A DNA stretch of 64,000 nucleotides from Pseudofrankia sp. DC12. Lineage in GTDB: Bacteria > Actinomycetota > Actinomycetes > Frankiales > Frankiaceae. This document shows positions 5,071 to 6,960 of the stretch, one piece after another. Positions within the stretch are counted from its first letter, which is position 1. Each line of letters opens with the position of its first letter. The notes under the pieces were generated by a model. The model saw nothing but the letters and a program-made list of their open reading frames with translations, was not told where the DNA came from and searched no databases. The stretch covers positions 4,480,540 to 4,544,539 of the forward strand of contig NZ_KQ031391.1 in assembly GCF_000966285.1 (NCBI RefSeq), given 5' to 3'. The translations under genes and the position numbers were made by a program.

Positions 5071-5099
5071 TACAACTTTGCCGATCGTACAACTTTGCA
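5071..5099 (-). promoter_or_regulatory. Twin TetR operator-like site upstream of tetR/exporter 1
   Basis: Two near-palindromic 12-mers, TGCAAAGTTGTA and GGCAAAGTTGTA on the minus strand, start 17 bp apart, about 70-100 bp upstream of the TetR start. Each contains CAAAGTTG with inverted CAA/TTG ends. The same arrangement with one base changed in each unit occurs at 6932-6960. Operator function is inferred from position, symmetry and recurrence. Confidence 0.65.
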
Positions 5100-5140
5100 G
5101 TCTCTGAATAAATCTGGCCGGACGACCGAACCCGCGGAAG

Positions 5141-5179
5141 CGCCCGACGGCCGGGCGGTTTGCGCGCGGCCGTCGGGCG
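5141..5179 (-). terminator. Hairpin downstream of exporter 2
   Basis: Arms 5141-5153 and 5167-5179 (CGCCCGACGGCCG with its complement) form a 13-bp perfect stem with a 13-nt loop, beginning about 20 bp after the stop of the gene at 5200-6894. No U-run follows, as is common in high-GC actinobacteria. Confidence 0.55.
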
Positions 5180-5199
5180 GGTGTGTCGGCGGGACGTGA

Positions 5200-6894
5200 T
5201 CAGGTCGCGGTGGCCGTCGTCCGGCCCACCACGGCCAGGCCGGCCGGAACCGTGTCGGGGACCGTCACCTCGACGAGGTCCCCGGCGGCCTGGTCCGCGG
5301 CGGTCTGCTCGCGGGCGTCGAGGCCGCTGGTGCGGCGCATCCGCAGCTCCGGCAGCAGCCAGGCGGCCAGGAAGCCGAGGAATGCGATCGGCACCGCCAC
5401 CAGGAAGACGACCTGCAGCGAGTCGGTGTAGGTCTGGATGAACCCGGTGCGCAGGGCGGCGGGCAGGGCCGCGATCAGCCTGGGGCTCACGTCCGACCCG
5501 GAGACGCCCGCCGGCAGAGCCTGACCGCCCATCAGGTGCGACAGCTTGCCGCTCAGCACGTTCGCGAAGATCGTGCCGAACACCGCCGTGCCGAACGAGC
5601 CGCCGATCGAGCGGAAGAACGTCGCGCCGGAAGTGGCCGCCCCGAGGTCGCGCGGGTCGACGGCGTTCTGCACCGACAGGGTCAGTACCGGCATCACCAG
5701 GCCCATGCCGACGCCGAACACGAACATCGACAGGCTGAGCCGCAGCGTCGACACGTCCGGGGTGAGCAGAGAGAACAGCGCCAGGCCGACCGTCATGAGA
5801 CCCGTACCGACGATCGGGAAGGCCTTGTAGCGGCCCCAGCTGGAGATCAGCCGGCCGGTGGTCATCGAAGCCAGCATCAGCCCGAGGCTCATCGGCAGCA
5901 TCTGCAGCCCCGACACGGTCGGGTCGATGCCCTTGACGATCTGCAGGAACAGCGGCAGGAAGGTGATCGCGCCGAACATCGCGAAGCCGACGACGAAGCT
6001 CATCAGGCTGGAGACCCGGAAGAGCTTGATCTTGAACAGCCGCGGCGGCAGCACGGCCTCGGTGGCCCTGCGCTCGACCAGGCCGAACACGACCAGCAGC
6101 GCGACACCGCCGGCGGCGAGGCCCACGCTGGGCGCCGAGCCCCAGGCGAGCGACGAGCCGCCGAGGCTGGTGAACAGAACCAGGCAGGTGGCGCCGGCCG
6201 CGAGCAGCGTGGTGCCGAGGTAGTCGATCGACCGCTTGGCGGTGGACCGGATCGACGGCAGCACCGAGGTGGCGACGGCCAGCGCGGCCGCGCCGACCGG
6301 GACGTTGACGTAGAAGATCCAGTGCCACGACAGGTGGTCGACGAACAGGCCGCCCAGCAGCGGGCCGAGCACCGAGGACGTGGCGAACAGGGCCGAGAAG
6401 ACGCCCTGGTAGCGGCCTCGCTCCCGGGGCGAGACCACGTCGCTGATAATCGTCATCGCGCCGACGACGAGTCCGCCGCCGCCCAGGCCCTGCAGGGCGC
6501 GGAACGCGATGACCTGCGTCATCGACTGGCTGAGGCCGGCGAGCGCGGAGGCCGCGACGAAGATGATGATCGAGGCCTGGAAGAACCGCTTGCGGCCGTA
6601 GAGGTCGCCGAGCTTGCCCCAGATCGGGGTCGACACGGTCGAGGCGAGCAGGTAGGCGGTGACCACCCAGGACAGGTGCGTCGCGCCGCCCAGGTCTCCG
6701 ACGATCGTCGGCAGCGCGGTGGCGACGATCGTCTGGTCGAGCGACGCGAGCAGGAGGCCGGTGCCGAGCGCCGCGACGATCAGCCAGATCCGGCGACCGC
6801 CCGCGTGCGCGGAACTGTCCGCCGGCCGCGTAACGCCTCCGCCGGCGTCGGCTCGCGCGCCGTCGGTCCGGCCGGCGCCACGTGGTGAGGACAT
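5200..6894 (-). CDS. DHA2-family MFS drug exporter (14 TM), paralog 2
   Basis: A second EmrB/QacA-type proton antiporter, 564 residues from the ATG at 6894. That ATG is preceded by GGAGGAGA and is preferred over a TTG at 6930, which would lie in the operator region. It has the same motifs as paralog 1: [30 protein letters not shown] and [10 protein letters not shown]. The order is tetR-exporter 1, then exporter 2 further upstream, all on the minus strand with separate promoters. Shared twin operators suggest co-regulation. The C-terminal tail after the last TM is about 50 residues and variable. The substrate is unknown; drug, antibiotic or siderophore-like compounds are all possible. Confidence 0.9.
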
Positions 6895-6931
6895 GTTTGC
6901 TGTCTCCTCCGGTGCTCGATCGTGCATCAAC

Positions 6932-6960
6932 TACAAGTTTGCCTCTCCTACAAGTTTGCA
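6932..6960 (-). promoter_or_regulatory. Twin TetR operator-like site upstream of exporter 2
   Basis: On the minus strand, TGCAAACTTGTA and GGCAAACTTGTA start 17 bp apart, about 40-65 bp upstream of the exporter ATG. Spacing and sequence match the site at 5071-5099 apart from the central G/C. This is evidence that one regulator controls both units. Confidence 0.65.

Follow-up and report, generated by a model that had tools for sequence, protein, structure and literature searches.

Shared spacing of candidate operators across many related TetR-family repressors suggests that several repressor pairs, side by side, switch exporters off

Two paralogous exporter genes of Pseudofrankia sp. DC12 lie on either side of a gene for a TetR-family repressor, and the same pair of near-palindromic sequences is found in both promoter regions of this cluster. 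This raises the questions of which protein reads these sequences, in what units it reads them and which genes it controls. The locus lies within a stretch of 64,000 nucleotides (contig NZ_KQ031391.1, positions 4,480,540 to 4,544,539 of the forward strand), referred to here as the window, and all positions are given within it. The three genes are read from the minus strand, in the order exporter 2 (6894–5200), tetR (5000–4344) and exporter 1 (4309–2603).

5200..6894, minus strand: exporter 2, a DHA2 MFS exporter and paralogue of exporter 1 (TIGR00711, 264.3 bits, cut-off 230.2)
4344..5000, minus strand: tetR, a TetR-family repressor of 218 aa with TetR_N and TetR_C_14 (MftR-type C-terminal) domains
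2603..4309, minus strand: exporter 1, a DHA2 (EmrB/QacA-type) MFS exporter (NCBIfam TIGR00711, 262.3 bits, cut-off 230.2)

Both exporters score above the cut-off of the DHA2 MFS profile and they are 62% identical, which bears out the paralogy proposed in a preliminary description of this DNA. Profile searches assigned TetR_N (Pfam PF00440, 56.2 bits, cut-off 24) and TetR_C_14 (PF17754, 51.5 bits, cut-off 22.7) domains to the repressor, which remains below the MftR equivalog model (NCBIfam TIGR03968, 95.7 bits, cut-off 224.9). Its AlphaFold model (pLDDT 89.9) has a TetR fold, and its best PDB matches include the structures of SCO3201 and MftR; this prediction concerns the fold only and has no bearing on the spacing of dimers on DNA. 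tetR and exporter 1 are separated by 34 bp, are read in the same direction and probably form one operon. For exporter 2, the ATG at 6894 was favoured over a TTG at 6930 as the start, on the basis of homology and a GGAGGAG sequence upstream. A consensus scan of window positions 4900–7100 found no sigma-70-type promoter, and one terminator-like match was obtained in this interval, versus 0.8 in shuffled sequences. A long GC-rich inverted repeat (cgcccgacggccg...cggccgtcgggcg, 5143–5181), spotted by eye between exporter 2 and tetR, was not picked up by the terminator scan, which demands a run of T; it is perhaps a terminator parting exporter 2 from the tetR unit. Further upstream of exporter 2, a group II intron (7167–9018) is present, with a D1–D4 match at 7167–7286, a maturase ORF at 7648–8955 and a second Rfam match at 8943–9018. 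It leaves the candidate operator of exporter 2 intact, and, in the related genome G001, the sequences on its two sides (to about 7021 and from about 9151 onwards) lie next to each other.

The near-palindromes first noticed are 12-mers, the best-matching segments of the two promoters, and each promoter has a pair of them, 17 bp apart.

5088-5099, minus strand: TGCAAAGTTGTA, tetR promoter, first of the pair 5' to 3'
5071-5082, minus strand: GGCAAAGTTGTA, tetR promoter, 17 bp from TGCAAAGTTGTA
6949-6960, minus strand: TGCAAACTTGTA, exporter 2 promoter, first of the pair 5' to 3'
6932-6943, minus strand: GGCAAACTTGTA, exporter 2 promoter, 17 bp from TGCAAACTTGTA

The twins thus lie at 5071–5099 and 6932–6960, exactly where the preliminary description had placed them. 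The G/T difference that it reported in the outer copies is indeed shared by both pairs, but the G-for-T sits in the gene-proximal copy. It had also placed a pair in front of each exporter; the pair at 6932–6960 does precede exporter 2, whereas that at 5071–5099 precedes tetR, with exporter 1 following tetR. Within the window, the 12-mer has four matches with up to two mismatches (shuffle mean 0.59; four were reached in 1 of 100 shuffles). In the whole genome (6,884,336 bases, 6.88 Mb), GCAAASTTGTA is present in exactly four copies, all at the twin sites (reversed control, 0), and the 29-bp twin, with up to three mismatches, is found at just the two window places (control, 0). In this genome, the twin motif is, therefore, confined to these two promoters; abundance elsewhere, named as a refutation in the preliminary description, was not observed.

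When the two promoters are aligned on their first 12-mers, half-sites run on outwards on both sides, at steps of exactly 17 bp. The two sites per promoter described initially do exist, but they are flanked on both sides by more half-sites at this step. The promoters were scored with a 15-bp palindrome, TTGYA-N5-TRCAA (single unit, TTGTAGGAGAGGCAA), with 10 scored positions and a 17-bp pitch, corresponding to a 2-bp gap between units, and the following predicted units were obtained.

5095..5109, minus strand: predicted tetR operator unit 1, ATTCAgagacTGCAA, 8/10
5078..5092, minus strand: predicted tetR operator unit 2, TTGTAcgatcGGCAA, 9/10
5061..5075, minus strand: predicted tetR operator unit 3, TTGTAgcacgCGCAC, 8/10
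5071..5099, minus strand: twin 12-mers, re-read by comparison as the pair of junctions within the tetR array
6973..6987, minus strand: predicted weak outer unit of the exporter 2 operator, CTGCAgtcagGGAAT, 6/10 (7/10 in species G003)
6956..6970, minus strand: predicted exporter 2 operator unit 1, TTGCGttgacTGCAA, 9/10
6939..6953, minus strand: predicted exporter 2 operator unit 2, TTGTAggagaGGCAA, 9/10
6922..6936, minus strand: predicted exporter 2 operator unit 3, TTGTAgttgaTGCAC, 9/10
6932..6960, minus strand: twin 12-mers, re-read by comparison as the pair of junctions within the exporter 2 array

The promoter of tetR and exporter 1 has, thus, an array of three good units (5061–5109, 49 bp) and that of exporter 2 an array of three good units and a weak one (6922–6987). 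The organism's own genome holds only these two arrays when searched with a two-unit 15-mer pattern including Y and R, at three mismatches.

Conservation was assessed in 97 genomes, including that of the window (G000); from the family set, one locus at a contig edge (L069) was left out. The locus is shared by named strains of Frankia and Pseudofrankia (L003–L006). The twin, with up to three mismatches, was found in 8 of the 97 genomes: G000, six of the seven other genomes of the window's genus (g1) and G011; in G003, the exporter 2 promoter alone reaches this limit. The G011 twin (three mismatches, L044/L061) was taken as a chance match; it is situated where one frame ends, ahead of another of 1462 aa, with no tetR noticed among the frames of at least 150 aa. 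These same six g1 genomes share with G000 the gene order exporter 2-tetR-exporter 1. Three or more consecutive units scoring at least 7/10 were present in 20 of 21 promoters (seven tetR and seven exporter 2 promoters of g1, and seven tetR promoters of the Frankia-type genus g6), the exception being the Frankia-type G016 (scores of 7, 8 and 4); at background positions 75–260 bp upstream, 7/10 was reached in only 0–0.5% of cases. Four units (8, 9, 9, 8) are present upstream of tetR in G001 and G002. Six of the seven g6 promoters have one strong 12-mer yet three 15-mers in a row, and the number of 12-mers is, therefore, not the conserved trait; the outermost unit in most g6 promoters combines one good half-site with one poor half-site. 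This conservation in six related species, together with the uniqueness of the motif, supports the small regulon (tetR, exporter 1 and exporter 2) proposed initially.

In an unrooted tree, the exporter 1 proteins of seven species cluster apart from the exporter 2 proteins of these species (support 100/99 for each cluster), and the single Frankia-type exporter makes up a third group. The paralogue split, therefore, seems to be older than the diversification of g1, and the shared operators seem to have been retained after it. The remaining g1 genome, G007, is smaller; on its contig C755 (L174), tetR is at the contig edge and is followed directly by metG, without exporter 1, and the best match to exporter 2 is only 39% identical, so the exporters seem to have been lost or not assembled.

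The link between this spacing and the repressor was investigated beyond g1 and g6, in 61 regions upstream of tetR genes picked by protein similarity alone. One (L141) was removed because it gave no tblastn hit and its frame could not be placed, leaving 60 regions, two of which (L145 and L173) come from G011, a member of the same family but of another genus; counts over these regions are not independent, because related species are included. Pairs of 15-mers scoring at least 16/20 at a lag of 17 bp were found in 19 of the 60 regions, versus 5 for the best other lag between 10 and 40 and 0 in 30 shuffled sets. At 17/20 or more, the count was 13 of 60, versus at most 1 at any other lag, and at 14/20 or more it was 39 of 60, versus at most 19 elsewhere (at lag 34, twice 17); the other 21 regions had no lag-17 pair at this last threshold. 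A search for paired palindromes free of any consensus also ranked lag 17 first, with inner gaps of 3 or 5 bp (z 8.0 and 7.6). Among single palindromes with 5-bp arms, found without a consensus in the same regions, the top z value belonged to an 11-bp gap (6.4, versus 4.3 for 5 bp and 4.1 for 3 bp), and this excess has no explanation in a 15-mer array.

A DNA search was also performed in 393 genomes of the class, with two TTGCA/TGCAA units and up to two mismatches, a pattern fixed after the 60 regions had been viewed. It yielded 31 places in 30 genomes (reversed control, 1 genome). A second place in G361 was left out of the fetched loci, and in 28 of the 30 fetched the centre of the motif lay 20–98 bp upstream of the start of a match to the TetR profile (the start of the profile match, not the start codon). 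In one of the other two, the distance was 1253 bp, and the last was the exporter 2 promoter of G003 (L179), known before. Eight of the 28 (G049, G091, G158, G263, G249, G294, G280 and G376) were already in the set of 60, and 20 loci are, therefore, new. Exporter genes of the DHA2 type were present in 18 of the 30 loci and of the RND/MmpL type in 5, with neither in 7. This pattern, lacking Y and R, misses the window's own arrays, which contain TTGTA, and G003 was the only g1 genome matched. The observation that arrays track this TetR subfamily supports the suggestion in the preliminary description that the sites belong to the local TetR, with autoregulation. Four points are direct observations: the pattern in the sequence, the fact that it is unique in the genome, its conservation and its tie to this TetR subfamily.

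Other half-sites were seen near more distant relatives. Where the TetR is of the DPKTFFNYF or DAKTFFNYF type (in Nonomuraea, Saccharopolyspora, Actinopolymorpha and others), TTCCA-N5-TGGAA or a similar sequence lies close to the start of tetR (L008–L011, L013–L015, L017, L019 and L020), with only a weaker form in L022. MftR-like TetRs of g3, in the same family (L078, L086 and L091), have TGGCA-N5-TGCCA, which corresponds to the published MftR site, 28–55 bp upstream of the estimated start. The half-site thus tracks the recognition helix (SPRTFFNYF with TTGCA, DPKTFFNYF with TTCCA and GRRTFFRYF, MftR-like, with TGGCA), as judged by eye in a few groups. The named distant loci (L007–L043) were scanned but left uncounted, because in many of them the TetR is matched only in part.

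A published operator bears on the choice of unit. AtsR of Corynebacterium glutamicum is reported to bind TGCAAAATTGCA, with the consensus TGCAA-N2-TTGCA, from which TGCAAASTTGTA differs by one base and GGCAAASTTGTA by two; the site was found in a 29-bp fragment with three extra bases at either end, the shift was abolished by two (M1 and M2) of the three sets of changes made within the site, and one homodimer was proposed (PMC9210681). The exact AtsR-type 12-mer was found in 32 of the 201 genomes of the genus of G375, taken to be Corynebacterium; 38 places were listed, 30 of them with loci. Two of these 30 loci precede an RND gene (by eye), with a TetR of this subfamily after or beside it, and these two AtsR-like proteins match the profile of the window's TetR subfamily. 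The promoters concerned read TTGCA-N7-TGCAA-AA-TTGCA-N7-TGTAA and GTGCA-N7-TGCAA-AA-TTGCA-N7-TGCAA. The 7-bp spacing, first spotted in these two promoters, was then tested on the 201 genomes: the 36-bp N7 tandem, with up to two mismatches, was present in 72 of them (control, 0), and an RND exporter gene lay beside it in all 30 loci examined (L239–L268; starts estimated, one locus ending at a contig end). Three units at 19-bp steps occur in at least four genomes (G428, G429, G502 and G583), and two other genomes of this genus (L237 and L238) contain a TetR-DHA2 pair in which tetR is preceded by an N5 tandem. Given the N7 tandems in RND promoters, the published 12-bp AtsR operator may also be a junction of two units.

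Two registers are conceivable. Each 12-mer, TGCAA-N2-TTGTA, could itself be the site of one dimer, with two dimers 17 bp apart on each window promoter and the flanking half-sites as weak extras. The AtsR data fit this possibility, the 12-mers are the strongest parts of the window promoters, and the junction is constant at 2 bp in both N5 arrays, as in the window, and N7 arrays, as in the Corynebacterium-like genus; a constant N2 with a variable inner spacer would suit a 12-mer dimer site equally well. Nevertheless, among the 60 outside regions, R-N5-L sites of at least 9/10 are present in 25 and L-N2-R sites in 12 (other spacings, 0–8), with 16 regions having only the 15-mer, 3 only the 12-mer and 9 both. 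The palindrome published for MftR has the N5 form (T-N2-GGCA-N5-TGCC-N2-A; PMC8728441). The two exporter promoters found via the 12-mer have outer half-sites at 7 bp (9/10 each) that would be superfluous for one dimer, and a search of 35 family genomes for the bare 12-bp palindrome TRCAASSTTGYA revealed no enrichment (13 places, four of which are the tetR sites of G012, G022, G029 and G034, versus 49 for the reversed control). A test of inner bases leans modestly to the 15-mer (24/39 and 20/39 within units, versus permuted means of 10.8 and 12.8), with the value across the junction also above chance (17/39, versus 9.9), and the two registers could not be told apart by compensated changes between half-sites. 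On balance, the unit is considered likely to be the 15-mer TTGYA-N5-TRCAA, which would make the 12-mers its junctions, and the 12-mer as the site of one dimer is considered rather unlikely. The initial proposal of two dimers on two 12-mers, in the manner of QacR, probably errs as to the unit, the number of dimers and the geometry, as the comparison favours three 15-mers per window promoter. Both registers lead to the same predictions for the regulon and the binding protein.

The arrays might also bind a regulator other than the local TetR, such as an ArgR-like or nucleoid protein, since ArgR-type regulators also use TGCA-rich palindromes. This seems very improbable, given that 28 of the 30 fetched tandem sites lie directly before a tetR of this subfamily and that half-sites vary with the recognition helix in the few groups compared by eye. 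It is no more credible that the shared arrays are a relic of exporter duplication, without a present role: the exporters are paralogous and their promoters may share ancestry, but the split seems to predate the radiation of the genus, yet three core units stay at 7–10/10 while the flanks diverge. The preferred reading, with a probability of roughly 0.68, is that both promoters carry the 15-mer operator of the local TetR, a row of dimers of which would repress tetR-exporter 1 and exporter 2.

TetR control of exporters is already known, and several described systems resemble this one in part. AtsR is likewise a TetR-family repressor beside an exporter, with an operator almost identical to the 12-mer, and the promoters of AtsR-like RND genes have tandem half-sites with an N2 junction; it differs in its RND, rather than DHA2, exporter, in the single dimer on 12 bp proposed by its authors and in its redox control via Cys123-Cys187 (PMC9210681), the window TetR having a single cysteine in its 218 aa and, hence, no two-cysteine switch of this type. 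A 7-bp spacer and 19-bp pitch, versus 5 bp here, were seen in the relatives examined. MftR shares the TetR_C_14 type of C-terminal domain and the N5 palindrome (GGCA-N5-TGCC), but it controls cofactor genes and has another half-site, and a single palindrome is described (PMC8728441). QacR also represses a DHA2-type exporter (qacA), with more than one dimer per operator, but its 28-bp operator consists of a pair of inverted repeats that overlap and that, according to a citing paper, are bound from opposite faces of the helix (PMC9210681; PMC6449355). When the window units are read as 15-mers, three or four of them abut in a row, 2 bp apart and without overlap, and the QacR analogy appears weak. 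Several TetR dimers also occupy one long operator in EthR, but this operator is 55 bp long, with a different type of repeat, and is bound by an octamer (PMC9210681). MAB_4384 represses an exporter, with two dimers on one operator, as inferred by gel filtration, but the site is one 27-bp palindrome of two 13-bp repeats rather than a row of 15-mers, and the exporter is MmpS5/MmpL5 (PMC5895659). No description of such an array of TetR sites was found in the open-access literature, searched mostly by titles and abstract starts. On the same basis, no work on bacterial operators was found among the matches listed for 11-letter forms of the motif; the written-out N5 forms led to LysR-family work only, and no second AtsR study was found among the matches listed for AtsR and its gene names.

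From these comparisons, we infer a mechanism in which one TetR dimer probably binds each 15-bp unit, with neighbouring dimers meeting at the 2-bp junctions, that is, at the 12-mers first noticed, where they might bind cooperatively. The row of dimers would cover the promoter or start region and block transcription; the arrays end 60 bp (tetR) and 27 bp (exporter 2) before the ATG, making a block of RNA polymerase likely. A ligand, probably an export substrate, would free the dimers, and both exporters and tetR would then be derepressed together. There is about an even chance that the arrangement is more general, with a large actinobacterial TetR subfamily controlling exporters through rows of abutting dimers in which the junction keeps a constant length of 2 bp, the inner spacer measures 5 or 7 bp according to subgroup, and the row grows during evolution from two to four units, tuning the steepness of the switch, the AtsR 12-mer being one such junction between dimers. 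The interest of the present case lies in this operator rule and the possible re-reading of AtsR. With the rule (repeats of TTGCA-N5/7-TGCAA, 2-bp gap), DNA sequence is enough to locate, across many actinobacteria, the sites at which exporter repressors are likely to control their own genes, and to predict regulons. It also opens the number of dimers per operator to experiment, not least in the case of AtsR, for which a single dimer on 12 bp has been reported. The natural arrays of two, three and four units would provide a direct test of how the number of units relates to repression strength and cooperativity.
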